Assembly: GCF_900100255.1 (NCBI RefSeq)
Contig: NZ_FMTS01000004.1
Location: 1 to 64,000 of the forward strand
Reading direction: 5' to 3'
DNA from: Asticcacaulis taihuensis
GTDB lineage: Bacteria > Pseudomonadota > Alphaproteobacteria > Caulobacterales > Caulobacteraceae
Length of the DNA stretch: 64,000 bases
Part shown: positions 1-19,916 of the stretch, in pieces
Position numbering within the stretch: the stretch's first letter is position 1
Layout of the letters: every line of letters begins with the position of its first letter
Notes under the pieces: model-generated
Seen by the model: the letters and a program-made list of their open reading frames with translations, nothing else
Told to the model about the DNA's origin: nothing
Database searches by the model: none
Position numbers and translations under genes: made by a program

Positions 1-254
1 ATCAGAAAACAGCGGCGTAATATCCACCTAAACCGAGGCCAAACCCTCCACTATTTTGCGACCGAGTTTGTCCCAATATCTTTGACGACGGACACATGGA
101 AACGCTGGGACAGAGACTGGCACAGCCTAAGGGCTGGGCCGTCACTCGCGTCACCGACGGCGACTTGGCGAGCGCTGTGCCGGAGTAACGCCTCGCCCTC
201 AAGACTAGACAAAATGCCGAATCTTGATAAAATTGGAGTTCATCCATCTCATTG
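1..254. other. Left-edge stretch with no convincing gene
   Basis: No recognisable gene is seen here. One plus-strand frame is open from the window edge to about position 252, but its translation is rich in Arg, Ser and Trp and resembles no family I know. A 30-codon ORF starting with ATG at 96 and ending at 188 has no clear ribosome binding site. The stretch could be decayed coding sequence at the end of the island or the tail of a gene that begins outside the window. Confidence 0.4.
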
Positions 255-313
255 ATTGCTTCGGCCAGTAGGCGGCGCCCCGCACAGGGGCGCCGCCTAC
301 TGGCCGAAGCAAT
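255..313. repeat. 27-bp-arm perfect inverted repeat (hairpin)
   Basis: Bases 255-281 (beginning ATTGCTTCGGCCAGTAGGCG) are the exact reverse complement of 287-313, with a 5-nt loop (GCACA) at 282-286. A perfect 27-bp stem of this GC content would fold strongly as RNA or cruciform DNA. It is not followed by a T-run, so it is not a standard intrinsic terminator. It could be a mobile-element end pair, an RNA structure or a recombination site. Confidence 0.9.
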
Positions 314-333
314 ATGTGGCACCCACGACGCTA

Positions 334-620
334 ATGTCGAGATATGTCGAGATTCAAAGACGATCTCTTTTCATTTCATGCCGACAATTTCTTGAAAATC
401 GGCTATTGCCTCGCGCGTCACTTCCTTTCGTCCACACGTCAGGCACGTCGGGATAATGTCGAGATACACGAAAATCGTCACGTCTAGTATGTCGACATAA
501 AGTCGAGATTTATCCTCCCTACTCTTGAGGAAGCCGACTAAAACACCTTGCTTGCCAATGCCCGGACACCATCCAGAATGAATTGGCTATCGCATAGTCT
601 AACGACTGCGATGTCGAGAT
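334..620. repeat. Six copies of the 10-bp motif ATGTCGAGAT
   Basis: Exact copies of ATGTCGAGAT lie at 334-343, 344-353, 456-465 and 611-620. One-mismatch copies lie at 489-498 (ATGTCGACAT, inside the 12-bp palindrome TATGTCGACATA at 488-499) and 500-509 (AAGTCGAGAT). All face the same way. The offsets form two triplets: 334/344/456 and 489/500/611, displaced by 155, 156 and 155 bp. The last copy ends three bases before the stop codon of the ATPase gene. Iteron-like protein sites or an old tandem duplication are possible explanations. Confidence 0.85.
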
Positions 621-623
621 TTG

Positions 624-2003
624 TCAGCTAACGCGCCGATATACGGTTGCGCGGGCCGATCCCTCTTTCCGGACAAAACGATAGCTCACCAGTTCTGACA
701 GATCACGACTGGCCTGCCGCGGGTTCAAACCTTCAGCAAACCGCGCCCCGTATTCCGCCAACGTCATGACTTCGCCCGGTGCAACCGCGTCGAGATAGGC
801 CTTCTGGCGGACATTTAATTGCTGGTTACGGGCATCCTCTCGTCCCAGCGCCGCGAACACGGTCAACGTCACGCCGCCCTCATCATCACGCCATTTAGGC
901 GGAGGCGCCCCCAGCCTCTTGGCACTATCGGCAATACGCTCGGCGCCTCGCCCAGTTCTGTCCATCATATCATTGAGATAAAACAGATGGGCGATATCCG
1001 GATTAACCGGGTACGACTGGTGCCCGCGGGGCAAATCGGCGGCTTTGATTTCACGCGGCAGCCGACCCGAATTCCAGAATTCAATCCGATCGGGAAAGAC
1101 CGAAACCTTTACACCACCGGAATACGACGCATAGTCGCGGTGAGCCAAGGCGTTCACGATACCCTCGCGAAGCGCAAACCCTTCATAATTTTGACGCTCA
1201 TCCCGTTTGATCGAGCCTTCGCTGAACTCTGCCCGCCTGCGGATATAGCCACTCAACACTTTGAATACGCGTTCCGCAATTTCGAGCACGGACCCTTCAA
1301 ACCACTCATAATGCTCGTAACTGTCGTCCGTCTTATCTCGGCGGTATTCCACCAACTGCACCCGCACCTGCGGATGCCGCTGCTGAGGAAACCTGGCGAA
1401 TAGGATGTCAGCCGCATTCGTATACCCGCTCGCACGCCACAGCCCGACCTGCGAAAGGAACGCATTCGGTGAACCCATATCCGAAGAATGAAAGCGACCG
1501 GTCTCATTTGCCTGCGACAGCACAGCATGGACAAGCTCGTAGTCGATATCCACCTCTTCCAGGGCCGGAGAAATTCGCCGCTCCCAGCGTTCCGGCAACG
1601 GATCCGCACTAAACATGCCGCGAATGTCATCAGCCTTCGCCCGAAGAGTTTCCGTGCCCTGACGAACCCAGATCGCGCCCTCAGCGACGTACGGACGATC
1701 GCTGCCAGGCGGAACGTTGACGACGAAAACCTGCATGTCGTCGGCCTCTTCCAAATCGACCGAAAACAGGACGGACGGGGTGATCAGCTCCTTGAGTTGA
1801 CTCTCGAACGTTTCCAGCAAGCCGCGCTTCTGATCGGCCACAAGCCTGGGCTCTGGGATAACAAAGGCAGTCCCCCCTGTCACCGAATTGAGAAACCCGC
1901 ACACTTCCCGCGCCACCGCCGGCATGCTGAAGGCGCCACGCACAATACCCGTCGCTACGCCTTCACCACCAGAAATGCGTTTCAAGACAGTCGGATCAAT
2001 CAT
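624..2003 (-). CDS. Schlafen-AlbA / GHKL ATPase (HATPase_c_4) protein
   Basis: A 459-residue putative ATP-binding regulator or effector. Residues about 30-135 look like an AlbA_2 (Schlafen-type) domain: a GFLNSVTGGTAFVIPEP stretch, then RPYVAEGAIWVRQGTET. The usual N-terminal E-x-EFK signature is absent, so this domain is divergent or short. Residues about 285-390 carry the HATPase_c_4 signature REGIVNALAHRDY (N-box-like) and GRGAERI. The C-terminus looks like a winged helix. Such proteins are common in bacterial defence and mobile islands, and their biochemical role is mostly unknown. The start overlaps the stop of the DUF4062 gene by 4 bp (ATGA), which suggests translational coupling in a three-gene operon. 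Confidence 0.85.
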   Translation of the reverse strand: MIDPTVLKRISGGEGVATGIVRGAFSMPAVAREVCGFLNSVTGGTAFVIPEPRLVADQKRGLLETFESQLKELITPSVLFSVDLEEADDMQVFVVNVPPGSDRPYVAEGAIWVRQGTETLRAKADDIRGMFSADPLPERWERRISPALEEVDIDYELVHAVLSQANETGRFHSSDMGSPNAFLSQVGLWRASGYTNAADILFARFPQQRHPQVRVQLVEYRRDKTDDSYEHYEWFEGSVLEIAERVFKVLSGYIRRRAEFSEGSIKRDERQNYEGFALREGIVNALAHRDYASYSGGVKVSVFPDRIEFWNSGRLPREIKAADLPRGHQSYPVNPDIAHLFYLNDMMDRTGRGAERIADSAKRLGAPPPKWRDDEGGVTLTVFAALGREDARNQQLNVRQKAYLDAVAPGEVMTLAEYGARFAEGLNPRQASRDLSELVSYRFVRKEGSARATVYRRVS

Positions 2004-2689
2004 GATGCCTGCCCTTTCTCAGCTGTAAGGGCTTTCGCAACAGCGGGAGCGGACGCGTGGTCGGCAACCTCTTTCGTTTCCTGAATGCGGCGAAGTAGCT
2101 CGACATTATTGCCTTCGGGATCAAATTGCGTGGTCACAAAGCGCAACACATCCGCCTCGCTATCAAACGGTTGCGTCCAGTTGTTCGTCCGGTCCGCCAG
2201 TTCCTTGACATCTTCTCGATTGGCCGCCTCTAGCATATCGATGCACTTTAGGTCATGCAGAACAGACTTGCTATCGAGTGTCAGCACCGAACGCCCTTCC
2301 GCGCCTTTCAATGATTTTCCGCCAGATGACAATGTATTCAGGAGCGCACGCGCGGAGTACACATTCTTATGGCAAACCATAAACCGAGGCTTATCCAGTT
2401 CAATCGCCTTGAGTAATTCCCTGTGGGTGATCGACTGTTCGCCTTTCTGTTCAACGCCCGTACCGTAGGCAGTCGTAATAATGCCGAAAAAAATATCGCA
2501 GCGCTCGACCGCAATAAGGCAGTTCTCGAAGTTGTTCAAATCTGGATTCAGCGGGATAGTGCCTTTGTGGGACATCCAAACATCGTATCCGAAGGCAGTC
2601 AGCATCGCGAATATCTGATCGAGCATAGGCTCGATCTGATACACGGTCGACGAAACCATTATCGATACTCTTCTCGGACCTTTTGCCAT
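2000..2689 (-). CDS. DUF4062 (TIR-like) domain protein
   Basis: About 229 residues. The MVSSTVY strand near the N-terminus, then ERCDIFFGIITTAYG and SITHRELLKAI, follow the DUF4062 pattern (SST..., cD...GI...YG, S-x-T-x-x-E). DUF4062 domains are found at the N-termini of STAND-type NTPases and in conflict systems. A relationship to TIR or deoxyribosyltransferase folds is plausible, and the Glu in THREL could then be catalytic; this is inference. I chose ATG 2689 because the SST strand normally follows the start closely. A TTG at 2743 would add 18 residues and overlap the upstream gene. It is the middle gene of the operon. Confidence 0.75.
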   Translation of the reverse strand: MAKGPRRVSIMVSSTVYQIEPMLDQIFAMLTAFGYDVWMSHKGTIPLNPDLNNFENCLIAVERCDIFFGIITTAYGTGVEQKGEQSITHRELLKAIELDKPRFMVCHKNVYSARALLNTLSSGGKSLKGAEGRSVLTLDSKSVLHDLKCIDMLEAANREDVKELADRTNNWTQPFDSEADVLRFVTTQFDPEGNNVELLRRIQETKEVADHASAPAVAKALTAEKGQAS

Positions 2690-2733
2690 CACCACCGAAT
2701 CTCGCTCAAACCCAACTTGCGTCAAACGAAACC

Positions 2734-3543
2734 CTACGCGCAAGGATTAGTTGTGGATTTTTCATCGCCCGTTTGGCTACCCACAGACTCTTCAATATCC
2801 CACAGGGATCGCCCCGGACCATAGGCCAGTCGCCGATCGATCAGCATAATCTTGCGCTTGGGAGCGCCCGGATCGGTTGCTTTCTGCGACACCGACAACA
2901 CCGCCACCCTATGGTCTTCAAAGTCAGGGCGAGGCGCATCCATGACGCCACACAGCACGGTCAGGCCTTTACGCTCCAAATCCGCTACAGCCTCCAAAAT
3001 ATCTGAGTACAGCTCACGACGGCGGCCCTCCCCGCCGTGACCGCCATTCAGGGCCCCGCACATGAGGAAACCCGCCAGGTCGAACCACTCGACAAGGCCC
3101 AGCACCTCATCCTGAAACTCGGCTGGCAACTGTGGGGTCACCGGCAGGCATGCGTGGCAATTGGCGATCTGGCGAACGTCGGCCTGGGTCTTGAGCACCT
3201 TGACCTTAACAACCTCCATGTTCCCAAACTGCTCTGCCATCTCGGCATGCACGTCTTCCATCGGCCTTGGCCAGCGGGGCTCGGTGTAATGACCGACCTC
3301 ATGGCCCAGCGCTACCGCTATCTGATCCAGCGACTCGCGTGATACCGGCTCACCCCTCTCTACCCGTTCGACCGTCGATACCGAAACGCCAGCAAAATCT
3401 GCCAGCGTGCTGACCTTCCAGTTCTGCAAGCGGCGTTCCATCTGGACGACGATGGCAGTCATCTCCAGCGGAGGCGCCCGAAACCCACCTTGGTCCGCCT
3501 CGACAGCTTTAACAAACCGATCCCAAAGATCTTTGGTCGACAT
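2734..3543 (-). CDS. XRE-family HTH regulator with unknown C-terminal domain
   Basis: A 269-residue protein. Residues about 42-82 (STLADFAGVSVSTVERVERG) form a Cro/C1-type helix-turn-helix. The remaining 185 residues match no family I recognise. They contain two adjacent Cys (NCHAC) and a Gly/His-rich segment (GGHGGEG). A strong AAGGAGA lies 7 nt before the ATG at 3543. As first gene of the operon it is probably an autoregulator, or a regulator-sensor of the two downstream proteins, in the manner of XRE proteins in phage-defence operons. Confidence 0.8.
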   Translation of the reverse strand: MSTKDLWDRFVKAVEADQGGFRAPPLEMTAIVVQMERRLQNWKVSTLADFAGVSVSTVERVERGEPVSRESLDQIAVALGHEVGHYTEPRWPRPMEDVHAEMAEQFGNMEVVKVKVLKTQADVRQIANCHACLPVTPQLPAEFQDEVLGLVEWFDLAGFLMCGALNGGHGGEGRRRELYSDILEAVADLERKGLTVLCGVMDAPRPDFEDHRVAVLSVSQKATDPGAPKRKIMLIDRRLAYGPGRSLWDIEESVGSQTGDEKSTTNPCA

Positions 3544-3695
3544 CTAATGTCTCCTTCCGGCACCATCATGCGCATTCCGACTGAAATAAAACAGCCGCAA
3601 AAATCCTTCAGTTGGCATCACCGAGGAGAAGGGCCAAGATGTGCATAATATACAGAAAGCGCCCCGCTTTTTAGGGGCGGGGAACGAATCTATTC

Positions 3696-4835
3696 ATGCC
3701 ACTCAAAATGCCCGGCCGAAATGAACCCTGTTGGTGCCATTCGGGCCTCAAATATAAGAAATGTCACCTGAATCGCGTTGAACAGCCCAGAGGCAATCCC
3801 TGGGAAGTGGTCGAGATCAATAAGAAGGCCTTTCAAAAAAAGAGCTGTTTCGCCGAAGGAGGCGATTTTGGCGCCTGTGAAGGGAAGATCATCAACGCCC
3901 ATACGGTTTCGCGCGGCCCCAATCTGACGAAGATCGCTCGAAACGGCCAGGTCATTCAATATAAGGGCAATGTCACTGTTTTCGAAAAGACCGGCGGCCG
4001 GCTCAAACCCGATCTCATCGGTATCGGCCAGGCTTCAGCGTTCAACGGCTACTGCGCAAAACATGATCGTGAGCTCTTTTCTTGCATTGAAAATGAACCC
4101 TTCACCGGTCGCGTGGATCAGCTCTTGGCCGTGGCCTTCCGAACCTTGAGCCGGGAACTCCACGGCAAGGACGCATCCGGTAATATGCGTGACATGCTGC
4201 GCGACTCCGACAAGGGCCGGACCTTTGAAGAACAGCTTGCGATCCAGCATTGGCTGAAGACAATGGATGTCGGCATTAAAGCGTCTCAGCGGGAATTGAG
4301 AGCCACCTTCAGCACGTTGAAGCAAGCGCTCGCGGGGAAACAGCCGGAGGTTCTGCGCTCACTGGTTCTGAAGTGCGACGCCGCTCTGCCATTCATGGCG
4401 GCCGGCGCCTGGTCGGCTTTCACCGACCTCAACGGCAACGACATCCAAGACGGAAACTCGACTGAACAGTTGGAGCAATTGTTCATCTCGACGTTCGCCG
4501 GAGACCCGACAAGCTACATTTGCGTGTCATGGCTCGATAAGCCCGGTGCGCCCGGAAAGATTATAGCCGATCAGCTCGCCTCCATCGCACCAGATCGGCA
4601 AGTCGAGGTGTTTCTTCAGTTCGTCGTCAAACACGTCGAAAACGTATTCTTCAATCCCGACTGGTTTGAAGCCCTGGCCCCCGGTCAGCGCAAGACCCTC
4701 GATCGCCTCGCGGCCAGTGGACTCGATAGTTTCGGCAGTGTGCCCCAGGCCGCGCTTCGGGCCGACGTTACCTTCGGCATGCCTGCCGTGTCACGGAGCA
4801 CATTCGTCGGCTGCAAGTCGAAGCTTTCCGGTTGA
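3696..4835 (+). CDS. SEC-C motif zinc-binding protein
   Basis: A 379-residue protein. The N-terminus has a SEC-C motif variant (PGRNEPCWCHSGLKYKKCH, with C-x-C-x8-C-H ligands). A second likely metal site follows: GACEGKIINAHTVSR and, about 60 residues later, YCAKHDRELF, which resembles a Cys/His zinc knuckle. The helical C-terminal part is not recognised. SEC-C proteins of this shape often occur singly in accessory islands, with a suspected nucleic-acid role. It is divergently transcribed from the XRE operon over a 152-bp gap. ATG 3708, just before the motif, is an alternative start. Confidence 0.75.
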   Translation: MPLKMPGRNEPCWCHSGLKYKKCHLNRVEQPRGNPWEVVEINKKAFQKKSCFAEGGDFGACEGKIINAHTVSRGPNLTKIARNGQVIQYKGNVTVFEKTGGRLKPDLIGIGQASAFNGYCAKHDRELFSCIENEPFTGRVDQLLAVAFRTLSRELHGKDASGNMRDMLRDSDKGRTFEEQLAIQHWLKTMDVGIKASQRELRATFSTLKQALAGKQPEVLRSLVLKCDAALPFMAAGAWSAFTDLNGNDIQDGNSTEQLEQLFISTFAGDPTSYICVSWLDKPGAPGKIIADQLASIAPDRQVEVFLQFVVKHVENVFFNPDWFEALAPGQRKTLDRLAASGLDSFGSVPQAALRADVTFGMPAVSRSTFVGCKSKLSG

Positions 4836-4951
4836 TGGCGAAATGATATGTGGCCACAACATCCGTAGTCTTGAGCGGCTTCTCATAGCTAGTTCCGCTT
4901 TTTACATGCCTCGAATGTGTGCCCATGTCTCCTAAGGGCCAAGAGGCGAAA

Positions 4952-5866
4952 TTATAGTGCTAGTCTTGCTTCGCAAATTTGCTTCGTCACATTCCGCAAA
5001 AGGATGACCCGTGCGCGCAGCCATTCTAGCTCCTCGGCGGCAATCTCATATTCAGCCGAATATCGTGCTTCAACATAGGCCCTCTGCAATTTTGCAAAGC
5101 ACCGCCTGGCAAATTTATCGCTGTCCGGCCAGATGTCGCGTAGATGCTCGTCCAAGCCCTCTGCCTGCGATCTCAAGAAGCTGAGACGATGAGATTTCGG
5201 ACTGTAAAGTGTGAGGACTAGCAGGACGCAGTGGTAGAGAGCCTCTGTCACTTGATGGAAAGTGAAAGCGACATCCTTTGTCCATTGCTGATCAGTTTGC
5301 GATCTGTTCAGTAGGTAGTCGGCCGTTTCTAAACGTCGCTCTGCGTTTGCTATCCACTGATCGTAATAACCTTGTGCCTCGGCCCTGACCTCATCAGCAG
5401 ATAGTGGTTTGGCCTTTGCCAGCGGATGCCCCTCGGCCTCGAAGAGCATGATGCCGTCACGCGCTATGTCACTAAAGAACGGACGCCCCTTGGCTAATTG
5501 ATCATTCACGTCCTGAAGACTATGGACGATTAAGCTAACCGGCGTGTTCAGCTCATGTGTAAGAGTATATTCACGGACAAATGTGTCGTCGGCGCCTGAC
5601 CAATATTCTTGCAGATCGGTGAACTCGTGACCGCTGACCACGACGAGGATGTCATAGTCCGAGCGATAACCCGACAGACGGTCTTCCACCCATCCGCCGC
5701 GCGCATATGATCCAAAGAGGATCACTTTCAGGATGCGCCCGGCCTTACGCTTGCCGGAGAGCTTCGTCTTGGTCGCATTTTCGAATGTATCGAACAGCAC
5801 CTTCACCACGTGCTCAAGCTCGCGTTGTTTGGTATCGGGCAGGTGCGAGAGCTGATCGGCCAGCAT
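4952..5866 (-). CDS. Fused MNT-HEPN nucleotidyltransferase protein
   Basis: About 304 residues from ATG 5866, which has AGGAAT 7 nt upstream. A GTG at 5899 would add 11 residues. Residues 50-75 carry the minimal-nucleotidyltransferase signature GSYARGGW with acidic residues in SDYDIL. The C-terminal half is HEPN-like (FHQVTEALYHCVLL, then SPKSHRLSFL). MNT antitoxins silence HEPN RNase toxins by adding AMP near the HEPN active site. Here both are in one chain, so it could be a self-controlled toxin-antitoxin or a drug-modifying enzyme. The position inside the island favours the first. Confidence 0.75.
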   Translation of the reverse strand: MLADQLSHLPDTKQRELEHVVKVLFDTFENATKTKLSGKRKAGRILKVILFGSYARGGWVEDRLSGYRSDYDILVVVSGHEFTDLQEYWSGADDTFVREYTLTHELNTPVSLIVHSLQDVNDQLAKGRPFFSDIARDGIMLFEAEGHPLAKAKPLSADEVRAEAQGYYDQWIANAERRLETADYLLNRSQTDQQWTKDVAFTFHQVTEALYHCVLLVLTLYSPKSHRLSFLRSQAEGLDEHLRDIWPDSDKFARRCFAKLQRAYVEARYSAEYEIAAEELEWLRARVILLRNVTKQICEARLAL

Positions 5867-5956
5867 GGAGATTCCTATATCGAAATACGAGTCTAGCACC
5901 GCAACCGGGCGTGAGCTACCGCTTTTCCGCTAGGGGCAATCAAGGGCAAAATACGC

Positions 5957-6250
5957 CTATTTCTGCCCCCGCAGCGGCAATTCAAGTTGAGCCCAGCTAC
6001 CACGCTGGCCACTGGCTACCTTGGCCTCATGGGCCACGGGAGAGGTCTGTGGGGCAGGTTCTTTCACTGAACTCCCGCCGTCGATAAAGGCCAGCAAATC
6101 ACGACGTAAGATCAGCCGTCGTCCGCCAACCTTCACTGAACGCAGAGCGCCTTCGGCCATCTTCTCGTAAAGAAATGACCTGCCCAGGCCCGAAGCCTTC
6201 ACCGCCTCATCTATGCGATATGAAATCTTGTCTATACTCTCTGTCGCCAT
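5957..6250 (-). CDS. AlpA/excisionase-like HTH protein
   Basis: A 97-residue protein whose first 60 residues fit an HTH_17/AlpA fold: SYRIDEAVKASGLGRSFLYE, then a wing RSVKVGGRRLILRRDLLAFI. Such proteins act as recombination directionality factors or regulators of island excision. GGAGG lies 6 nt before the ATG. It sits between the MNT-HEPN gene and the integrase, in the usual xis-int neighbourhood, with a 465-bp leader containing several inverted repeats. Confidence 0.8.
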   Translation of the reverse strand: MATESIDKISYRIDEAVKASGLGRSFLYEKMAEGALRSVKVGGRRLILRRDLLAFIDGGSSVKEPAPQTSPVAHEAKVASGQRGSWAQLELPLRGQK

Positions 6251-6467
6251 GGTCCACCTCCAGGCCTTGAAGATACCATCGAAGACACTCTTTGAAGAGA
6301 CACCAGCGAGGGACTGGGACGGCCAAAGAACGACTCCCGACTTTGGTACGCATAACCTCTTGACGCCTCTGTACGGGCATTCCAGGCCACCTACGAGGGC
6401 TTTTAGCTTACCGGCCGTCCAGAGGCCAGGGGAGGCTAAAAACCCTCATTTTCAACAAATTTATCGC

Positions 6468-6537
6468 AACGCAAAAATGGGAATATAAATAAATAAAAAC
6501 AATGCGTTACCATGTATTAACTCCCAATTTTTGCGTT
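6468..6537. repeat. Inverted repeat with AACGCAAAAAT arms
   Basis: The left arm AACGCAAAAATGGGA (6468-6482) is the reverse complement of TCCCAATTTTTGCGTT (6522-6537) apart from one extra T. The 11-mer AACGCAAAAAT therefore occurs at 6468-6478 and inverted at 6527-6537. It occurs again inverted at 8181-8191, beside the tRNA gene. A repeated short word on both sides of a tyrosine integrase gene is typical of arm-type binding sites, but no binding data exist. Confidence 0.6.
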
Positions 6538-6648
6538 AAATCCTGAAAACCGATGTGCAGACAAAGGCTTACGCGAAACAGGAGTTGAGCCTTTATCTTG
6601 CCTTCACTCCGTACCTTTTTTGTTCCGATTTTCACACGGTAAAATGTG

Positions 6649-6665
6649 GCCGCACATTGTGCGGC
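6649..6665. promoter_or_regulatory. 17-bp perfect palindrome, candidate operator
   Basis: GCCGCACA-T-TGTGCGGC is a perfect dyad with one central base. It lies about 50 bp past the integrase stop codon and about 400 bp before the Xis-like start. It could be a dimeric regulator site or a small hairpin at the end of the integrase transcript. There is no T-run. Confidence 0.5.
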
Positions 6666-6715
6666 GCACACTTACCTGAGCAGGGTATGTGACATGACAG
6701 TTCAAACTGATGTCT

Positions 6716-8026
6716 CTAGCCATAACTCTGTCCAGGAAAACGGACAGTCATTGTCACATTAGAAGAATAGCTTCCCGTTGCCTCAGTAGGACGGGTGGCA
6801 GCCTTCTTTTTTTGAGCGAATTGCTTCGGTGTTTGGATATCAACGCCCGCTTTCAGATGATCAAGATAGTCTGACCACCACTGCGCCATTTCGACTCGCT
6901 CGTCCCAAAACTGGCTCCGCTGGTAGATACCGCGTACACTGTCGTCCACATGCGACAGGGCCAATTCGATTGTCTCGGGCGCCCATAGCCTCGATTCATT
7001 GAGAAGCGTGCTCGCCGTACTACGGAAGCCATGTGACACCATTTCCTCGTTGCTATAACCCATTGTCCGCAGAGCCTTGTTTAAGGTGACGTCGGACATG
7101 GGTTTTCGCCAACTTTTGCGCGCCGGAAACACTAGCGTATAGTTACCGAACCTGAGATGTGCTTGGTTTAAAATTGCCAGCGACTGGCGAGATAGAGGAA
7201 CGGAATGAGGTTCTCGCATCTTCATTCTTTCGGCGGGTATTTTCCACACGCAGTTGTCGCGGTCCATATCCTTCCATTCAGCACTACGAAGTTCGCCCGG
7301 TCGAACGAACACATGGGGCGCCAGCTTTAGGGCGAGCCGCGTGCCGATAAAGCCGTTATAGGCATCGATGTCCCGCAAGAGCTGACCAAATGCACTGGGA
7401 TCTACGATGGCGGCGTGGTGGCGCACCTTCGGCTTGATAAGCGCTTCGCCCAACTCCGCCGCAGGATTGGTTGCGGCTCTGCCAGTAAGGACACCGTAAC
7501 GGAACACGCGCGAGAGAAAGCCTCTGATGCGGTTGGCAGTCTCGTAATGTCCGTTTTCTTCAACCTTACGAATGGCCTGAAGTATCTCATAAGGCATTAG
7601 ATCGTTCAGCGCCTGATCGCCAAGGTCTTTTTCAACAAGGGAAAAGAACCATTCCATTTTGTATAAGGTCTTATTTGAAAAGCCGTCCTTTCGCTTTTTC
7701 TCGATAAATTCGGCCGCGACCACACGCAAGGTGCTGCTCTTTTCCAGAATTTTTGCCTTCTCCAGGCGCTTACGCTCTTGGTACGGATCGACCCCATGCG
7801 CGAGGAGCACGCGGGCGTCGTCTCGCCTTTCTCGTGCTTCTTTTAGGGTTATCTCGGGGTACGAACCCACCGATAAGGTTTTCTCAGCCGACTGCCAGCG
7901 ATATTTCACTCGCCAATACTTGCCACCGGCCGGTGAAATGAAGAGATAAAGACCGTCTTCATCATAGAGCTTGAACGGTTTAGCCTTCGGCCTCGCGTTG
8001 CGGGCCGCCATATCAGATAGTGCCAT
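6716..8026 (-). CDS. P4-type tyrosine integrase
   Basis: About 436 residues from ATG 8026. AGGAGGG lies 5 nt upstream of this ATG, so it is preferred over the in-frame ATG at 8095. The N-terminus is a DUF4102-type arm-binding domain (DEDGLYLFISPAGGKYWRVKY; KTLSVGSYPEITLKEAR). The catalytic domain shows the first Arg in FVRPGELRSAEW, HGFRSTAST (H-x-x-R), LSHVDDSVRGIY with the His, and the Tyr nucleophile. It catalyses integration and excision of the island. It is adjacent to the 3' end of tRNA-Leu, the usual attachment target for this family. Confidence 0.95.
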   Translation of the reverse strand: MALSDMAARNARPKAKPFKLYDEDGLYLFISPAGGKYWRVKYRWQSAEKTLSVGSYPEITLKEARERRDDARVLLAHGVDPYQERKRLEKAKILEKSSTLRVVAAEFIEKKRKDGFSNKTLYKMEWFFSLVEKDLGDQALNDLMPYEILQAIRKVEENGHYETANRIRGFLSRVFRYGVLTGRAATNPAAELGEALIKPKVRHHAAIVDPSAFGQLLRDIDAYNGFIGTRLALKLAPHVFVRPGELRSAEWKDMDRDNCVWKIPAERMKMREPHSVPLSRQSLAILNQAHLRFGNYTLVFPARKSWRKPMSDVTLNKALRTMGYSNEEMVSHGFRSTASTLLNESRLWAPETIELALSHVDDSVRGIYQRSQFWDERVEMAQWWSDYLDHLKAGVDIQTPKQFAQKKKAATRPTEATGSYSSNVTMTVRFPGQSYG

Positions 8027-8181
8027 GTTCCCTCCTGGAACGTATGAGCGACATACGTGCGACAGTCGGGCGGCCATACCCCCATATACCCCCAAAATCG
8101 CAGTGGATGCGAGCGGATACGGGTGGACAGCCGTGGCCTGTTACACGCATAAACTACCAGATTTTAAGAGGTTTTTCAATA

Positions 8182-8199
8182 TTTTTGCGTTTGCAAAAA
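8182..8199 (-). terminator. Small hairpin just after tRNA-Leu
   Basis: TTTTTGC (8182-8188) pairs with GCAAAAA (8193-8199) around a 4-nt loop. It lies 7 nt past the tRNA CCA end on the minus strand, a plausible tRNA terminator. It overlaps one of the three AACGCAAAAAT words. Confidence 0.5.
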
Positions 8200-8205
8200 C
8201 GTAAA

Positions 8206-8290
8206 TGGTGCCCCCGGTCGGACTCGAACCGACACACCTCTCGGTACCGGATTTTGAATCCGGCGCGTCTACCAATTCCACCACAGGGGC
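8206..8290 (-). tRNA. tRNA-Leu (CAA anticodon)
   Basis: The 85-nt minus-strand sequence begins GCCCCTGTGGTGGAATTGG and ends GGGGGCACCA. The 7-bp acceptor stem GCCCCTG/CGGGGGC has one T-G pair. The anticodon stem CCGGA/TCCGG encloses the loop TTCAAAA, which gives anticodon CAA (UUG codons). A long variable arm and GGTTCGAGTCC T-arm are present, and CCA is encoded. The 3' end faces the integrase, so the island attachment site is probably in the 3' half. I found no second copy of this 3' end to the left in the window. Confidence 0.97.
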
Positions 8291-8354
8291 GCAGGGAAGG
8301 AAGCGGGTTGATAAAGGCTTTTCACGGATGGCGCAAGAGCCAGACAGAGCGTTT

Positions 8355-9182
8355 TTATGCCAGCATATTGCGCTTGTGCGCCGGCAGCTTCCTGAGGTCC
8401 GGTTTTGGCGCAGGGGGCGGCGTCGGGTCAGGTTCGGGCGTGGCCGCAACTACAGGCGCGGCGCCCGCCTTGTCGGCATCATTCAGCGCCTCGGTCACCA
8501 CCGCCGCCGCGCCATTCTTTCGAGCCAGAGGCCAGGCCGGACGCCAGCGCACCAGTTCGGGGGAAGGCAGGTACTGGGCTTCCAACTGGCGGACATAGGC
8601 CAGGGAATCCGTCCGCGCCAATTCGTCCTGGGCGGCGCGGATCAGGCTCTTCACATAGTCCTCGTTACTCCAGAATACCCGGAAGGCATTAAGGCTTTCC
8701 CACACCGCAATCATCTGCTCCTCGGCCGACATGGCAATCTTGACCTTGTTGGGCTTTGGCTTTTCCGGCTTCGGCGGTTCCGGCGGCGGCATGGCCTTTT
8801 CGAGTTCGGCCAGGTTCTTGCCGGGCTTGTCGACCAGGGCCATGACATGGCCGAGACGGTTATGCACCTCATCCCGCACCAGGGCCGCGCGTTCGATGAT
8901 CGCCAGTCCCCGCGCCTCAAGCGCCTGATTCAGCCGATAGCGGATGCTGTCATAGATATGATCGACCGAACGGCGCTTGGCCTCGTCAAGCCGCATGGCC
9001 GCCTGACGCCGGCCGATATAGGCGCCGATGGCCACCGCGATGACCACTGTCACCATCAGCGCCAGAAAGACATAAATCAGGAACGGATCGAAATAGGCTA
9101 TGCCAACATCGGCATAATAGGGATCGGGGGGCGCGTCATTAAACGGGCCGTTGAAATCCGAATCGAGTAGAAAAAGCGCCAT
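8355..9182 (-). CDS. Single-pass membrane protein, unknown function
   Basis: A 275-residue protein not recognised as a named family. After a short acidic N-terminus there is one membrane segment (about residues 35-57). A charged, probably helical domain follows (DEAKRRSVDHIYDSIRYRL...), and then two Pro-rich linkers (PPPEPPKPEKPKP; PEPDPTPPPAPKPD). It starts 2 bp after the stop of the upstream gene (9185-9919), whose product has the same layout. The two probably form a membrane complex. Confidence 0.6.
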   Translation of the reverse strand: MALFLLDSDFNGPFNDAPPDPYYADVGIAYFDPFLIYVFLALMVTVVIAVAIGAYIGRRQAAMRLDEAKRRSVDHIYDSIRYRLNQALEARGLAIIERAALVRDEVHNRLGHVMALVDKPGKNLAELEKAMPPPEPPKPEKPKPNKVKIAMSAEEQMIAVWESLNAFRVFWSNEDYVKSLIRAAQDELARTDSLAYVRQLEAQYLPSPELVRWRPAWPLARKNGAAAVVTEALNDADKAGAAPVVAATPEPDPTPPPAPKPDLRKLPAHKRNMLA

Positions 9183-9184
9183 AT

Positions 9185-9919
9185 CTACCCCCGAACCCCA
9201 GGCTCGCCGACACGCGGCAGCAGGGGCGGCGTCCAGACGGGGGTATCGATAAGCTGGATGCGCGCATTCTCAAACAGGCCGGCCATGGAGCGCGTGCTTT
9301 TCCATTCCTCGTGCAGAGCGTTCAGGGCCTTGTATATCCGCGCCTGGTGACTGAGCGGCGGCGCCGGCGGCTGGGCGAAAGGCGCGCCAATCTGGGCGAC
9401 CGGCTGCCCGTTATGGACGCCCGTCTGTACGGCATCCGCCACCGGTTGACCGTTCGGACTGTTACTGACCGCGATATTGATGATGGTGCCTGAGTTTTCG
9501 CCTATGCCGCCTATGCCATAACCGGCCGGCGCATCGACTTCCTTCACACCGCTCAGGGCCTTTTCAAGCTTGCTGTATTCGTTACGGATTTCCTTGCCGC
9601 AGCGGCGGGTTTCACCGCTGATGGCATTGACCAGACCGACTACGTCCGGGCTGAGCGTCCCCGGCGCTTCATACGCCCTGGCCTGAGCCAGGCGCGAAGC
9701 CGTCTCAACCAGCTTCACGGTTTTGACGTGGGCGAAGAAGCTTTCCCACTGGTTGCGGCGGACAATGCGGTACACGCCCCAGACGACCAGCGCCATGATG
9801 ATGCCCCAGACCAACAACGCCAGAAGCGGCGCATCGTGGTAGAAAACGGGATCGGATGGAAAGTCGTTAGGCGGGGCAACGGGGTCCGGCCCATCGGGAG
9901 CGTCGTAATTTCCGTGCAT
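9185..9919 (-). CDS. Single-pass membrane protein, partner of the next gene
   Basis: A 244-residue protein of unknown function. The N-terminus is rich in Asp and Pro. One membrane segment at about residues 30-50 (LALLVWGIIMALVVWGVYRI) precedes a helical soluble domain, a Gly/Asn-rich stretch and a C-terminal helical segment. The shape matches the protein encoded immediately downstream (2-bp gap). The start has GGAGGG about 5 nt upstream on the minus strand. Confidence 0.6.
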   Translation of the reverse strand: MHGNYDAPDGPDPVAPPNDFPSDPVFYHDAPLLALLVWGIIMALVVWGVYRIVRRNQWESFFAHVKTVKLVETASRLAQARAYEAPGTLSPDVVGLVNAISGETRRCGKEIRNEYSKLEKALSGVKEVDAPAGYGIGGIGENSGTIINIAVSNSPNGQPVADAVQTGVHNGQPVAQIGAPFAQPPAPPLSHQARIYKALNALHEEWKSTRSMAGLFENARIQLIDTPVWTPPLLPRVGEPGVRG

Positions 9920-10014
9920 TATGAACCCTCCCTTTCACGCGCCTGTCTTCACCCCGAAAGGTTAACAGATTGCCAAAGGGGATGCGAGTCCACAACGCCT
10001 AATTTGCGAAGCGA

Positions 10015-10476
10015 TCAGCCTTCGGCGCCATTATGCGCTTTCAGCGCCGCTTCCTCGACACGGCGCAGCAGTTTCTTGAACTGCACCACCTCTTCCGGTG
10101 TGAAGCCAGCCAGCATGATGCGCTCATATTCGGCGGCGGCCGGCGCCACATCAGCATAGAGCCGCTCGCCTTCGGCCGTCAGGATCAGGTGGTGCGACCG
10201 GCCGTCATGTTCGTGGGGCGCGCGGGTGATCAGCCTGCGCTTGGCCAGGGCCTGGGCGGCGCGTGAAATCGTCACCTTGTCCATGCCGGCGCGCTTGACC
10301 AGGGCCTGCTGTGTGGTGGGACCATCTTCGCGCAGAATAAAGATCAGGCGCCATTCCGGTATCTTGAGACCATAGAGACTCTCATATGCCGTCGAGATCA
10401 GGGCACTGACGGCACTGGAGGCCACGGCCAGGCGATAGGGCATATACTCGTCGAGAGGCAGCGAATCTTGAGACAT
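10015..10476 (-). CDS. MarR-family transcriptional regulator
   Basis: A 153-residue winged-helix protein. The segment PTTQQALVKRAGMDKVTISRAAQALAKR is the MarR recognition-helix region. The wing follows: RLITRAPHEHDGRSHHLILT. MarR dimers bind short palindromes near their own promoters and respond to small ligands. AAGGAT lies about 8 nt before the ATG. The 233-bp gap upstream, shared with the divergent membrane protein gene at 10710, is the likely operator region. The ligand is unknown. Confidence 0.9.
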   Translation of the reverse strand: MSQDSLPLDEYMPYRLAVASSAVSALISTAYESLYGLKIPEWRLIFILREDGPTTQQALVKRAGMDKVTISRAAQALAKRRLITRAPHEHDGRSHHLILTAEGERLYADVAPAAAEYERIMLAGFTPEEVVQFKKLLRRVEEAALKAHNGAEG

Positions 10477-10709
10477 TAAGACGAATCCTTCGTAGGGAAG
10501 CTACTATGTGCCTTGTGACAGCACCAATTACAAATGAGTTATTGTTAAGGCATTGTCGAATTAACCTAATGCCAGAGCCTTCCGCACATTGAAAATGTCG
10601 CTTTTACGCGATGTGAGCGCGCTTTTTTGCGCCTGGCACGCGTCACGCAGGCGACAAGGCAGCGAACTCCTGATAAGGCAGTCTGCCTGACCCCATCCAA
10701 GGAGCCTCC

Positions 10710-11291
10710 GTGCTGCGTCGTCTCTATAACTGGCTGCTGAAACTGGCCGGCACCCAACACGCCGAAAAAGTCCTCGCCGTCGTCTCCTTCGCCGAAGCGT
10801 CCTTCTTCCCCATCCCGCCTGATGCCATGCTGATCCCCATGGTGCTGGCCAAGCCGGAACGCGCCTGGCGCACTGCCTTCATCTGTTCGGTCGCTTCCGT
10901 TGCGGGCGGTTTTCTGGGCTACGCCATCGGTTATTACGCCCAGCCCATCGGTCACTGGATTCTGTCCCTGTTCGGCCATCCGCAGGGCCTGGAAGAGTTC
11001 CATGCCTGGTTCGCCAAATGGGGCGTCGGCGTCATCTTCATGAAGGGACTGACGCCTATCCCCTACAAGCTGGTGACCATCGCCGCCGGCCTTGCGCAAT
11101 TCAGCCTCGTGTGGTTCTTTATCGCTTCGGCCCTGACCCGTTCCTTACGCTTCTTCGCGGTCGCGGCCCTGGTAAAGCGTTTCGGGCCTGAAATCACCGA
11201 ACTGATGGAAAAGCGCTTCTATCTGGTCGGCACCATTGTTGTCGGGCTTCTGGTGGCCGGCATACTCGCTGTCAAATTTATTCCTCATTAG
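10710..11291 (+). CDS. YqaA/DedA-family inner membrane protein
   Basis: A 193-residue multi-pass protein starting at GTG 10710, preceded by AAGGAG. The family signature is clear: SFAEASFFPIPPDAML, the Gly-rich GGFLGYAIGYYAQ and, near the middle, FMKGLTPIPYKLVTIAAG. DedA-superfamily proteins are proposed lipid-carrier scramblases linked to membrane-potential homeostasis. The YqaA branch is little studied. It is followed 12 bp later by a DsbB-like gene and then COQ7, probably one transcript of membrane-associated functions. Confidence 0.88.
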   Translation: MLRRLYNWLLKLAGTQHAEKVLAVVSFAEASFFPIPPDAMLIPMVLAKPERAWRTAFICSVASVAGGFLGYAIGYYAQPIGHWILSLFGHPQGLEEFHAWFAKWGVGVIFMKGLTPIPYKLVTIAAGLAQFSLVWFFIASALTRSLRFFAVAALVKRFGPEITELMEKRFYLVGTIVVGLLVAGILAVKFIPH

Positions 11292-11303
11292 ACACAAACC
11301 TTC

Positions 11304-11864
11304 ATGACCGCGCACAAATCAAACAGGTTCGCCAAGAAGTTCATGCTGGCCTTCGGCCGCTGGTGGAGCATCACCGCCCTGGTCGTTTCCCTGGCCATGC
11401 TGGCGACCGCCTGGTCCTTCCAGTTGTTTGGCCATCTCGCCCCCTGCCATCTGTGCCTGAAGCAACGCGACATCTACTGGATCGCCGTCGGCGTATCCAT
11501 GGTAGCGAGCATCTGGGCCCTTTTTACCGGCGCCAAGGGACCGCCACGCGTCTTTTCGTTCGTTCTCTTCGCCATCTTCCTGACCGGCGCGGCCCTGGCC
11601 TTCTTCCATGCCGGCGTCGAACTGAAATGGTGGCGCGGCCCAGAAAGCTGCACTGCCTCCGGCGCCGAAATCAGCCTCGACCAGATGGCCGCCTTCCTGG
11701 CGGGCGCCGCCTCGCGGGCCCCGATGTGCGATGTGGCGCAATGGCGCATGTTCGGCCTGTCGATGGCCGGTTATAATGCCATCGTATCCGCTGTTCTGGC
11801 TACCTTAAGTCTGCTGGCCTCGCTGCGTTTCAAGTCGAAGTACCGCTCCAGCCGGCCCTATTGA
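11304..11864 (+). CDS. dsbB: Disulfide bond formation protein B
   Basis: A 186-residue inner membrane protein with four predicted helices. APCHLCLKQRDIYW carries the quinone-linked C-x-x-C pair in the first periplasmic loop. A second Cys pair is in the other loop (ESCTASGAE and APMCDVAQW). DsbB passes electrons from DsbA to ubiquinone. COQ7, a ubiquinone-synthesis enzyme, is encoded only 4 bp downstream. The C-terminus ends in a basic, probably cytoplasmic tail. Confidence 0.88.
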   Translation: MTAHKSNRFAKKFMLAFGRWWSITALVVSLAMLATAWSFQLFGHLAPCHLCLKQRDIYWIAVGVSMVASIWALFTGAKGPPRVFSFVLFAIFLTGAALAFFHAGVELKWWRGPESCTASGAEISLDQMAAFLAGAASRAPMCDVAQWRMFGLSMAGYNAIVSAVLATLSLLASLRFKSKYRSSRPY

Positions 11865-11868
11865 GTTC

Positions 11869-12441
11869 GTGCCCATGATGTCGCCCGCCAAACCCGTCCC
11901 TCCCCGCCCCGGCCACGGTTCCACGCGGCGCCGGCTGGAGGAAATCCTGCGGGTCGATCATGCCGGCGAGCTGGCGGCCGTGCAGATCTACAAGGGCCAG
12001 AGCATGGTCTTTGCCGATACGCCGAAGCGGGAATTGAGCGAACAATTCAGCCATATGCAGGGCGAGGAACAGGTGCATCTGGATGCCTTCGAGCGCCTGC
12101 TGCGTGAGAGACAGGTCCGCCCCACGGCCATGACGCCCATCTGGCGCCTGGCGGCGCTGGGACTTGGTGTCGGCACGGCCCTGCTGGGCGAAAAGGCCGC
12201 CCATGCCTGCACCGAAGCCGTGGAAGATGTTATCGCTGATCATTATGCCGAGCAGATCGCCGAACTGGAAACCTCTGATCCGGCGCTGGCGCAGCGCCTG
12301 ACCCAGTTCCGCCAGGACGAGATCGGCCATCACGATCGTGCCGTCGACCAGGGCGCGCGGGAAGCCACCGGCTATCCTCTGCTTTCGGCGCTTATCAAAA
12401 CCGGATGCCGGGTCGCCATCAAGATCAGCGAAAAAATATAG
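11869..12441 (+). CDS. coq7: Demethoxyubiquinone hydroxylase (COQ7 family)
   Basis: A 190-residue di-iron monooxygenase that hydroxylates the quinone ring in late ubiquinone synthesis. The ligand motifs are visible: EEILRVDHAGELAAVQIY, the E-x-x-H in MQGEEQVHLDAFERLL, then EDVIADHYAEQIAEL and FRQDEIGHHDRAV. The length matches the family. The first in-frame codon is GTG 11869, and ATG 11875 or 11878 are equally possible starts; no clear Shine-Dalgarno sequence separates them. Confidence 0.92.
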   Translation: MPMMSPAKPVPPRPGHGSTRRRLEEILRVDHAGELAAVQIYKGQSMVFADTPKRELSEQFSHMQGEEQVHLDAFERLLRERQVRPTAMTPIWRLAALGLGVGTALLGEKAAHACTEAVEDVIADHYAEQIAELETSDPALAQRLTQFRQDEIGHHDRAVDQGAREATGYPLLSALIKTGCRVAIKISEKI

Positions 12442-12492
12442 GCGAACCGGCACGCTCGTGTTCGCAGCCTGTTACAGACATGCGGAGCCCTT

Positions 12493-13761
12493 ATGCCGGA
12501 TACGGATATCCAAAAGGAAAAGCCAAAAGGTCTTAAAGCCTTGTGGAACCTGCTCGGTCCCGGCCTCATCACCGGCGCCAGTGATGATGATCCCTCCGGC
12601 ATTGCCACCTATTCCCAGGCGGGGGCGCAATATGGCCTGACCACCCTGTGGACCGCCCTGATCACCTTCCCGCTGATGGCGGCGGTGCAGGAAATGTGTG
12701 CCCGCATCGGCGTGGTGACCACGCAAGGCTTGACCGGCATCCTGCGCAAAAACTATCCCGCCCCCGTCCTGTGGCTGATGGTGCTGTTCAGCTTTCCGGC
12801 CATTGTTCTCAATATCGGCGCCGATATCGCCGGCATGGGCGCCGTCGCCAACCTGATCTTTCCGGCCGTCAGTCCGCTGATTTTCAGTGTCGTTTTCACC
12901 GGCCTGCTGCTGGCCGCCATTATCGTCCTGCCCTATGCGCGCATGGCCGCGGTGCTGAAATGGCTGTGCGCCATATTGCTGGTCTACCTTGTCGTGCCCT
13001 TCCTGGTGAAAACCGACTGGCCGGGCGTGGTTCGGCATACCTTCATCCCCGCCATCCAGTTCAACAAGGACTATATCAGCGTTCTGGTCGCTATTCTCGG
13101 CACCACCATCTCGCCCTATCTCTTCTTCTGGCAGACCACCATGGAAGTGGAGACCGTCAAACACCGCCATGTCGTGGTGGACAAGCGCTATATCCAGGAG
13201 GTCGGGTTCGATGTCGACATGGGGATGCTGTTCTCCAATATCGTCATGTATTTCATTATCCTGACCACCGGCACCGTCCTTTTCAATGCTGGCATCCATC
13301 AGATCGATACGGTTGAAGAGGCCGCCAAGGCACTGGAACCCATCGCCGGACAAGGGGCCTATTACCTGTTCGCCATTGGCATTATCGGTACCGGCTTCCT
13401 GGCCATTCCGGTGCTGAGCGGGTCGCTGTCCTACATCATTTCCGAGACCTTCGGCTGGCAGGAGGGTCTGGATAAGCGCCTGCACGAAGCCCCCGCCTTC
13501 TATGGCGTGATCGTCGTGTCGTTGCTGGTGGGGCTGGGGATCAACTATATCGGCATCAGTCCGATACAGGCCCTGATCTGGTCGGCCATTCTCTATGGTC
13601 TGACTTCGCCGGTGATCATCGCCATTGTCCTGCATATCTCGAACAATCGGGCCGTCATGGGGGAATATACCAATGGCGCCTGGTCGAATATCCTGGGCGG
13701 ACTGGCTTTTCTGCTGATGATCGCCGCGGCCGGTTTTATGTTGTATTTTCAGTTTGCTTAG
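12493..13761 (+). CDS. NRAMP-related divalent metal transporter
   Basis: A 422-residue protein with about 11 membrane helices. Helix 1 reads GPGLITGASDDDPSGIATYSQ where classical Mn/Fe NRAMPs have DPGN. The helix 6 region reads GTTISPYLFFWQTTMEVE, without the MPH motif and its metal-binding Met. This variant forms a large bacterial clade of NRAMP-like proteins. The substrate could be Mg or another hard cation rather than Mn or Fe, but that is inference. The 3' end overlaps the convergent GT87-like gene by 26 bp. Confidence 0.8.
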   Translation: MPDTDIQKEKPKGLKALWNLLGPGLITGASDDDPSGIATYSQAGAQYGLTTLWTALITFPLMAAVQEMCARIGVVTTQGLTGILRKNYPAPVLWLMVLFSFPAIVLNIGADIAGMGAVANLIFPAVSPLIFSVVFTGLLLAAIIVLPYARMAAVLKWLCAILLVYLVVPFLVKTDWPGVVRHTFIPAIQFNKDYISVLVAILGTTISPYLFFWQTTMEVETVKHRHVVVDKRYIQEVGFDVDMGMLFSNIVMYFIILTTGTVLFNAGIHQIDTVEEAAKALEPIAGQGAYYLFAIGIIGTGFLAIPVLSGSLSYIISETFGWQEGLDKRLHEAPAFYGVIVVSLLVGLGINYIGISPIQALIWSAILYGLTSPVIIAIVLHISNNRAVMGEYTNGAWSNILGGLAFLLMIAAAGFMLYFQFA

Positions 13762-15007
13762 TTAACCGCGAGACGACGACACGCCCGGCCACCACCACCG
13801 TCAGGCAGCCGAACAGCAGCATGGCCATGGAGGTGCGGTGCCAGAAATCCACATCTAGGATAAAACTGAACACGCCCCAGACCAACCAGCCGACAAAGAG
13901 CCACGACAGTATAAAGCGGAATATGCCGCCGCCGATACGATAGGCCACCGCCATCAGCAGGGCAGCATAGGGGGCGATCAGGATCATATCGTAATCGAGG
14001 ATGCGCGGGATCATCAGCGGCACCAGTCCCATGCCGAACAACAGGCGTTCATCTTCTTCAAGCTTGCCCCATTGCGCGATGGCCATGCCCGCAAGTCCCA
14101 TGACGATCATGAAACCAAGCGCCAGTTGCCAGTTCAGGTCCGACTTGCCCGGCACATGGAAGACCAGATTGGTCAGTTCGAACCAGCCCATGCCGGGTTG
14201 CCGCGCCAGGGTGACGGAATGAAGCGTCCGTTGCCACGCCTTACCGAAATGACCATCCGTGATCACCATCAGGTGGTTGACGCCAACACCTGCCACCGCC
14301 CGCCACAGAAAGGCGAAACCCCGCCGCCACAAAGCCACATCATCGAGCATGAAGATCACGAAATAGGCCAGGAAGGTCGGTTTGACGCAGGAACACAGGA
14401 GCACCGTCACGGTAAAGGGCAGGCGCGCCAGAAAGACATCCGACTGACTCATATTGGCCAGCGCAACGTCTTTGCGCCGGAACAGCAGAAGGCTGGCCAG
14501 CACCAGGGCGTGCATGACGATCCCGACATTGGCGCACAGGAAGGTCATGGCGGTCAGGCCGGAAAAGGCCAGCCAGCGCCAGCGGACGTCGATATGCGTG
14601 AATGAACGGACCAGGGCGAACCATAGCAGGAACAGGGTCGCCGGATAGAGCAATACCCACTGGAACAGGGTACGAGCCCCATTGATGCCGAAATGCTCAA
14701 CGAACGGCATGAAGAGGTAAGCCACCTGCGGCGCGTAGACATAGGCCGCCGGCCGCACCCCGGCGCAAACCGGCGGATGGATAGCATAGGGCGAATGGCC
14801 GGCCGCCAGGGTCCGGGCGCCGCAGAGCACCGCGTCAATGTCCATCATCATCCAGGCATGATGGGTGATCATGTGGTACATGCCGGCCACGATCGGCCAG
14901 GCGCAGAACAGCATGAAGAGGATCAGAAGCGGCTTGAAGGCGGTCAGACGCCGCAGGACAGAAAGCGCGTCCATGTCAGGCCGTGAACTCATAAATATGT
15001 TCGTCAT
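13736..15007 (-). CDS. GT87/DUF2029-like polytopic membrane protein
   Basis: A 423-residue protein with about ten hydrophobic helices. The N-terminal loop with MMDIDAVLCGARTLAAGHSPY and a YVYAPQVAYL segment is typical of DUF2029/GT87 polyprenyl-phosphate-sugar mannosyltransferases, which act in the inner membrane with the active site in a periplasmic loop. The acceptor is unknown. ATG 14992 is an alternative start, and neither start has a strong ribosome binding site. Confidence 0.7.
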   Translation of the reverse strand: MTNIFMSSRPDMDALSVLRRLTAFKPLLILFMLFCAWPIVAGMYHMITHHAWMMMDIDAVLCGARTLAAGHSPYAIHPPVCAGVRPAAYVYAPQVAYLFMPFVEHFGINGARTLFQWVLLYPATLFLLWFALVRSFTHIDVRWRWLAFSGLTAMTFLCANVGIVMHALVLASLLLFRRKDVALANMSQSDVFLARLPFTVTVLLCSCVKPTFLAYFVIFMLDDVALWRRGFAFLWRAVAGVGVNHLMVITDGHFGKAWQRTLHSVTLARQPGMGWFELTNLVFHVPGKSDLNWQLALGFMIVMGLAGMAIAQWGKLEEDERLLFGMGLVPLMIPRILDYDMILIAPYAALLMAVAYRIGGGIFRFILSWLFVGWLVWGVFSFILDVDFWHRTSMAMLLFGCLTVVVAGRVVVSRLTKQTENTT

Positions 15008-15240
15008 GGCGGCAGAAATGGCGAGATAATGCCAGGAGATGTGCGCTGGCCGTAGCTAACCTACGACCAAGCGCATCGACGCCGCAGTATGAAGCCATTT
15101 CGCCGTCCGAAGGATGCGGCCCCTTTGCACGGACTACGGCGTCGAAAAATCTCGAAAATGTAGGCATTTCCTTCGCTTTTTCTCCTGGTATCCGCACAAA
15201 TGGTCTCGCACCATGGCGGATATATTTATGAGTTTACGGC

Positions 15241-15570: not shown

Positions 15571-15616
15571 ATCCTATGCCACGCCCAAGCCGGTATTCCC
15601 CCGGTACGCCGGAAGC

Positions 15617-16177: not shown

Positions 16178-16369
16178 GTCAGCCCCCGATTCAGGAAATG
16201 GCATGCGGCATAAAGCACGGTACAGGTAGCAAACTGTTTGAAGACGTATCCTCCTCATGAAAAGCAGGCAGTCATAAATCAGGCTGTATGCCTACTCTGA
16301 GCCCGATTCCCGCAAAAGGAAACGGCAAATTTTTATGAAATTTTTGCGGCATCGCGTTAAACCATAGCC

Positions 16370-17167: not shown

Positions 17168-17174
17168 CGCACAA

Positions 17175-19911: not shown

Positions 19912-19916
19912 ACCGG

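Follow-up and report, generated by a model that had tools for sequence, protein, structure and literature searches.

A DUF4062 and Schlafen-GHKL gene pair near tRNA-Leu in Asticcacaulis taihuensis as a candidate NAD-depleting defence module

The locus and the conserved gene pair

Near the start of contig NZ_FMTS01000004.1 of Asticcacaulis taihuensis (assembly GCF_900100255.1), of which we analysed the first 64,000 nucleotides (hereafter the window), three genes are tightly packed on the minus strand: an XRE-type regulator gene (2734-3543; 269 amino acids, HTH_3), a DUF4062 gene (2000-2689; 229 amino acids from the ATG at 2689) predicted to encode the effector, a TIR-like enzyme degrading nicotinamide adenine dinucleotide (NAD; hence NADase), and a gene joining a Schlafen-type AlbA_2 domain to a GHKL ATPase domain, HATPase_c_4 (624-2003; 459 amino acids), whose product is a predicted ATP-dependent sensor or gate. 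The XRE stop codon is separated from the DUF4062 ATG by a 44-bp gap, and the DUF4062 and Schlafen-GHKL open reading frames (ORFs) overlap in an ATGA. Every Pfam assignment exceeded its cut-off: HTH_3 on the XRE protein (E 3e-5; 24.3 bits, cut-off 23), DUF4062 on the second protein (E 1.9e-15; 57.2 bits, cut-off 24.7), and both HATPase_c_4 (E 9e-16) and SLFN_AlbA_2 (E 8e-8) on the third.

A preliminary description of this DNA, written from the letters alone, had proposed these genes as a tightly packed operon and as a candidate defence system of three parts; the ORFs, spacing and domain matches confirmed the operon, and the relatives contradicted conservation of the trio. We scanned a one-genome-per-species collection with an alignment of four DUF4062 rows, one of which is a fragment; of the 110 relatives that this gave, the best 80 were retained, the selection being made on DUF4062 alone (an earlier scan of genome contigs with the single DUF4062 sequence had yielded 57 stretches, none of which was confirmed). 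An AlbA-GHKL homologue lay directly downstream on the same strand in all 80 (weakest E 5e-16), and a window-type XRE gene was present at 0 of the 80 loci (phmmer, E 1e-4; profile, E 1e-3), so the trio was rejected as a conserved system by the refuting condition that the preliminary description had set for it, a condition that the two-gene core withstood. The unit common to bacteria and archaea is the DUF4062/Schlafen-GHKL pair.

The pair is widely spread and compactly built. At 64 of 83 relative loci there is a 4-bp overlap between the DUF4062 stop and the first start codon usable by the partner. Clustering of the DUF4062 rows (83 with the window counted and the viral contig excluded) gave 35 clusters at 70% identity and 50 clusters at 80%; the loci therefore do not stem from a single event. 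Among the origins named are Pseudomonadota, Verrucomicrobiota, Spirochaetota, Chlorobiota, Planctomycetota, Myxococcota, Thermodesulfobacteriota and methanogenic archaea, many of the genomes being metagenome bins whose binning we took as given. The pair also occurs in a Hymenobacter plasmid, an Acinetobacter plasmid and one viral contig, the only pair from the scan of viral contigs; phage records contained no relative. A weak partial match (L016, E 2.5e-7) was excluded. Close to home it is rare: among 100 related genomes the DUF4062 protein was matched in one, the window's own.

The association belongs to this branch of DUF4062 and not to the family at large. As a control, we searched 398 Pseudomonadota genomes for the DUF4062 family and obtained 34 places in 30 genomes; for 30 of the places the locus was available, one of them the window, and the partner lay within about 1.5 kb at none of the other 29 (some of which end at contig ends). 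In a tree, the DUF4062 proteins of the pair form a separate clade with 100/99 support, outside which stand the 27 general DUF4062 rows compared (two more, L129 and L130, are disregarded because they had been cut in the wrong frame). Conversely, none of 26 other Schlafen-GHKL places in the class, some of them two pieces of one gene, had a DUF4062 gene of the pair clade, and the partner family is therefore wider than the pair.

Single loci add some detail. In the viral contig (L017, from IMG/VR; 5944-7774), the pair lies downstream of genes that, judged from their ORFs, resemble phage head and tail genes, and its DUF4062 gene is split over two frames. In an uncultured Erythrobacter bin (L048, 5136-11286), it stands between a relaxase/DUF3363 gene and a TraG/VirD4-type gene, like cargo of a conjugative element. 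The Acinetobacter plasmid (L004) has an extra ORF (1984-2484) before the DUF4062 gene that aligns weakly to DUF4062 and lacks both most of the conserved DUF4062 residues and a Pfam match; it is perhaps a degenerate DUF4062 paralogue.

The proteins of the pair and the XRE regulator

The modelled structure of the DUF4062 protein (from 45 sequences; predicted local distance difference test, pLDDT, 88; predicted template modelling score, pTM, 0.83) was matched by Foldseek to plant and bacterial TIR domains and to deoxyribosyltransferase-like enzymes (best E 7e-5; 12 matches at E of 0.001 or below), which supports its prediction as a TIR-like NADase effector. These are the two kinds of structure with which the preliminary description had proposed comparing it. 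The candidate catalytic glutamate, Glu91 of the motif SITHREL (codon 2417-2419, minus strand), falls in the helix that follows strand three of the model and is glutamate in all 83 rows; the preliminary description had already picked it out. By eye, it corresponds to the final Glu of SYTEKE in other DUF4062 proteins; judged from the motif and not from a direct alignment, it would be equivalent to E97 of KpSwz. Beyond the TIR-like core the model has only two helices (196-226), and neither this nor the length of 229 amino acids leaves an auxiliary domain. No PADLOC (2023) model matched the protein at E 0.1.

DUF4062 proteins have been described as TIR-like NADases in phage defence, under the name Swarozyc, in a May 2026 preprint (PMC13174449), with which the NADase assignment of the preliminary description therefore agrees. 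There, a Klebsiella DUF4062 protein protects E. coli through NAD+ depletion, Glu97 being required; its trigger is the phage portal, acting through an auxiliary domain at the C-terminus, and the DUF4062 proteins tested yielded ADP-ribose and nicotinamide (PMC13174449).

The partner is a relative of the Schlafens. A profile of 38 members of its family matches mammalian Schlafens (best E 1.5e-10), and its model (pLDDT 88, pTM 0.75) finds 3lmm as best PDB match (E 2e-19). The ribonuclease (RNase) acids of SLFN13 are E205, E210 and D248 (PMC5862951); in our alignment the family motif G-E-x4-E-F-K aligns with the first two, and the D248 position aligns loosely. Both Schlafen-type acids are present in 68 of 84 partner rows, and one is missing from the window copy and 15 others. 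In the window, the first acid is kept and the second is Gly19 (codon 1947-1949, minus strand), where 77 of the 84 rows have Glu; there is also a Val at a position that is Gly in 82 of 84 rows. RNase activity is thus possible, on the evidence of these residues, in most of the partner's relatives.

The GHKL motif residues are intact in every row that reaches them, apart from one R, and in the window the partner would act as an ATP-dependent gate or sensor. The preliminary description had cast the ATPase as a switch; the intact motifs agree with this, but it had not weighed that the N-terminal domain is a relative of Schlafen nucleases. The secondary structure of the C-terminus in the model (helices 398-440, strands 444-457) would fit a winged helix, with no Pfam winged-helix match in the window protein and with Fic-like_C or HTH matches in three relatives (L004, L013 and L014). 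The window protein also partly matches Argonaute-associated PADLOC models (E about 1e-12). In a Legionella anisa plasmid (L013, 4494-6005), a natural chain of 503 amino acids combines DUF4062, HATPase_c_4 and a Fic-like_C winged-helix match; its DUF4062 is a different one and it has no AlbA_2 match, and the fusion is consistent with a DUF4062 effector run by such an ATPase. The annotation of L. hackeliae shows these genes as two frames that overlap.

The XRE protein consists of a helix-turn-helix (residues 36-80) and a C-terminal domain of about 150 amino acids common to its family (seven aligned rows, 30-48% identical to the window's protein), and has no PDB sequence match at E 0.1. Its relatives are rare, eight in total: one in 384 other genomes of the class, none in 24 others of the genus, and seven in plasmid records; viral contigs gave no match. 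Recognised defence genes adjoin five of the eight, each time different ones: AbiJ (L099), AbiGi (L008), AbiH (L006), LmuA and LmuB of Lamassu (L010) and, by annotation, SLATT (L007). A sixth (L005) adjoins a SEC-C/AAA protein and a gene annotated as 7-cyano-7-deazaguanine synthase, and no recognised defence gene adjoins the remaining two (L009 and L011); the XRE genes of L009 and L010 are partial or broken. The regulator is a borrowed control switch, seen beside unrelated defence genes.

It carries its own upstream element. The sequence TGAAGG-N-TTTT, followed by CT and a T-rich run (3588-3610, minus strand), lies 67 bp before the XRE start, and its core recurs in all seven close XRE relatives, one copy per locus, 67-72 bp ahead of the start codon, at a chance expectation of 0.0016 per 250 bp; it was not found before the distant XRE gene of L011. 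A looser form of the pattern occurs at 29 places in 25 of 298 genomes, and as only two of these (the window and L099) adjoin an XRE gene of the family, it is mostly chance elsewhere. We read the element as a candidate autoregulatory operator or promoter element. The 152-bp intergenic stretch that holds it is shared with a divergent gene for a SEC-C motif protein (3696-4835, plus strand), and a SEC-C motif is also found at the end of the AAA protein that adjoins the L005 XRE gene.

Neighbourhoods of the pair and its proposed role

At part of the loci the genes around the pair belong to restriction-modification (R-M). Among the Pfam matches listed (25 of 56 families), the immediate upstream ORFs (n = 70) gave N6_Mtase 19 times, HsdM_N 15 times and SbcC-like families four times, with one or two matches each to other restriction or conflict families as well as ordinary genes; the downstream ORFs (n = 65) gave Methylase_S seven times, N6_Mtase five times, and PglZ and HSDR_N three times each, beside others that include ordinary genes (among the matches listed, 25 of 51). 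By a local profile, an HsdM-like gene stands directly upstream at 21 of 80 loci (20 of the 67 with at least 1.5 kb upstream), spread over 11 of the 35 clusters; as an internal comparison, 42 HsdM-like ORFs were counted among the 1016 of at least 150 amino acids, and at 21 loci such an ORF occupies the position just ahead of the pair. Some type I R-M-like loci have two hsdM-like genes, either in tandem ahead of the pair or one on each side of it: L037, L040, L067, L068, L071 and L073, and L052, L070, L072, L078 and L081, the loci L037 and L052 having been checked with Pfam and PADLOC.

On this evidence we favour, with moderate confidence, the reading that the window operon is a regulated, NAD-depleting abortive-infection module, and the relatives suggest a self-sacrificing phage defence. 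The XRE protein would repress the operon through the conserved element before its own gene; the DUF4062 protein would be the killer, a TIR-like enzyme that, once activated, destroys NAD+ with Glu91 (as is in print for other DUF4062 proteins); and the Schlafen-GHKL protein, its gene overlapping by 4 bp, would serve it as a sensor or gate that depends on ATP. The Schlafen domain of most relatives retains the RNase-site acids and may be a second weapon; because the window copy has lost one of them, the NADase is likely its only effector. Where the pair lies inside a type I R-M operon, its probable role, by analogy with PrrC in EcoprrI, is that of a reserve triggered by a block of restriction. Several lines converge here: the pairing itself (80 of 80 against 0 of 29), the TIR-like model with E91, the published DUF4062 NADases, the L. 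anisa fusion and the kept GHKL motifs, together with the neighbours of the pair (hsdM/N6_Mtase upstream; hsdS, PglZ and HsdR downstream) and of the XRE relatives (Abi, Lamassu, SLATT).

Other points weigh against this module. The TM-scores of the fold matches are modest (0.26-0.46 by query length), the defence role of the two pair members is argued from sequence and model, and the operator role of the element solely from its conservation; moreover, where the XRE gene lies downstream of the defence genes, no second copy of the element was found before those genes. The neighbours are mechanical ORFs, some of them wrong, tallied without a random-locus control, and an hsdM-like gene directly upstream is lacking at 59 of the 80 pair loci. 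The window's pair itself has no adjoining restriction operon, and Pfam found no hsd genes among its neighbours.

A broader version, which we hold tentatively and regard as doubtful, would make the pair an ancient two-effector back-up immunity, in which a TIR-like NADase and a Schlafen RNase on a GHKL switch guard type I R-M as well as other systems in bacteria and archaea alike; the window would carry a free-standing form, controlled by an XRE switch that is promiscuous and has a conserved operator of its own.

The strict gene order and overlap, and the presence of the pair on plasmids, in a viral contig and between conjugation genes, would also suit a toxin-antitoxin or addiction module, in which the Schlafen-GHKL protein merely restrains a DUF4062 toxin and the pair maintains a mobile element. 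We think this unlikely: the partner is much larger and more conserved than the usual antitoxin, and its relatives stand without a pair-clade DUF4062 gene at all 26 of the other places in the class. In Thoeris, TIR proteins make an NAD-derived messenger that switches on a partner. The DUF4062 enzyme might likewise make a messenger activating the Schlafen nuclease, and the two acids kept in 68 of 84 partners are in keeping with this. TIR domains are able to make such messengers (PMC13174449), but the tested DUF4062 proteins gave ADP-ribose and nicotinamide (PMC13174449), and the window partner and 15 others lack one of the acids; we rate signalling as unlikely, slightly below addiction. That the pair is a stress or transcription regulator carried as island cargo is very improbable in view of the restriction and other defence neighbourhoods, the mobile settings and the published tests of DUF4062 proteins, even though the pair has no known phenotype and relatives of the partner are annotated as ATP-binding, RNA-binding, Fic-family or RecG-like.

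The abortive-infection module that we favour has partial counterparts among known systems. Swarozyc shares with the window protein the TIR-like DUF4062 domain, the conserved candidate catalytic Glu and a patchy, mobile distribution, but it is a single protein with its own C-terminal portal-sensing domain (PMC13174449). The 229-residue window protein lacks that domain and belongs to a different DUF4062 clade; as far as gene arrangement goes, all 80 of its relatives are paired with a Schlafen-GHKL gene. Bacterial proteins made of Schlafen, minimal histidine kinase and winged-helix parts have been linked to defence (PMC12839542; also, by its title, a preprint by Taboada et al.) and resemble the partner in joining AlbA_2/Schlafen and HATPase, perhaps with a winged-helix-like end; the window protein differs from them in having a dedicated DUF4062 gene and in lacking the second Schlafen-type Glu. 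Nucleases of the PrrC/EcoprrI type are embedded in type I R-M operons (PMC3710099), and some relatives of the pair likewise lie among hsd genes; the protein families are different, however, and the window's pair lies outside any hsd operon. The BrxR/CapW and CapK/CapS regulators (PMC9122601; PMC13373217) resemble the XRE family as single regulator families beside several unrelated systems; the window protein, in contrast, has an XRE-type HTH, another C-terminal domain, no Pfam WYL match and no adjacent kinase.

Among the papers listed by our literature searches there was no description of the DUF4062/Schlafen-GHKL pair, although keyword searches can miss known papers; Schlafen, AlbA and HATPase are all absent from the main text of PMC13174449, whose supplement, like the Taboada preprint, may describe the pair. 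The papers listed for the XRE family concerned other defence regulators and not this one. DUF4062 defence NADases and bacterial Schlafen-kinase proteins are known, and what seems new is the close pairing of one DUF4062 clade with a Schlafen-GHKL protein, in the window placed under an XRE regulator.

If the favoured reading is true, two enzyme families with animal members (the Schlafens, and DUF4062, which is present in TEP1) are joined in one microbial operon, which would suggest that a DUF4062 NADase can be gated by a partner gene rather than by a sensor domain of its own. The question whether the pair guards restriction-modification would then be open to direct test. The XRE family is a second lead, with one regulator and one conserved upstream element beside several unrelated defence systems.

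The island around the window copy

The preliminary description had placed the operon on an island at tRNA-Leu, and this held up. A tyrosine integrase gene (6716-8026, from the first ATG) adjoins tRNA-Leu(caa) (8206-8290, minus strand), a small HTH_17/AlpA-like gene recognised with Pfam is also present, and the G+C content is 0.51-0.57 across positions 1-8000 and 0.56-0.65 across 8001-24000, all of which supports the island setting. The far end of the island is not visible because base 1 of the window is the first base of the contig; a second attachment site was not found, a 24-base word from the 3' end of the tRNA being unique in the genome at up to three mismatches.

The island holds some further features of interest. 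A nucleotidyltransferase-HEPN fusion encoded as a single chain (4952-5899, minus strand) weakly resembles the PADLOC candidate PDC-S09 and is possibly a second defence or toxin-antitoxin gene. Past the end of the Schlafen-GHKL gene, within 334-620, the word ATGTCGAGAT occurs in four exact plus-strand copies (at 334, 344, 456 and 611), with near copies at 489-509; when one mismatch is allowed, the window has 23 matches where 3.8 are expected. These copies are possibly arm-type sites of the island integrase, or regulator sites. Finally, near the contig end, a perfect inverted repeat (255-313) consists of two 27-nt arms with 5 nt between them.

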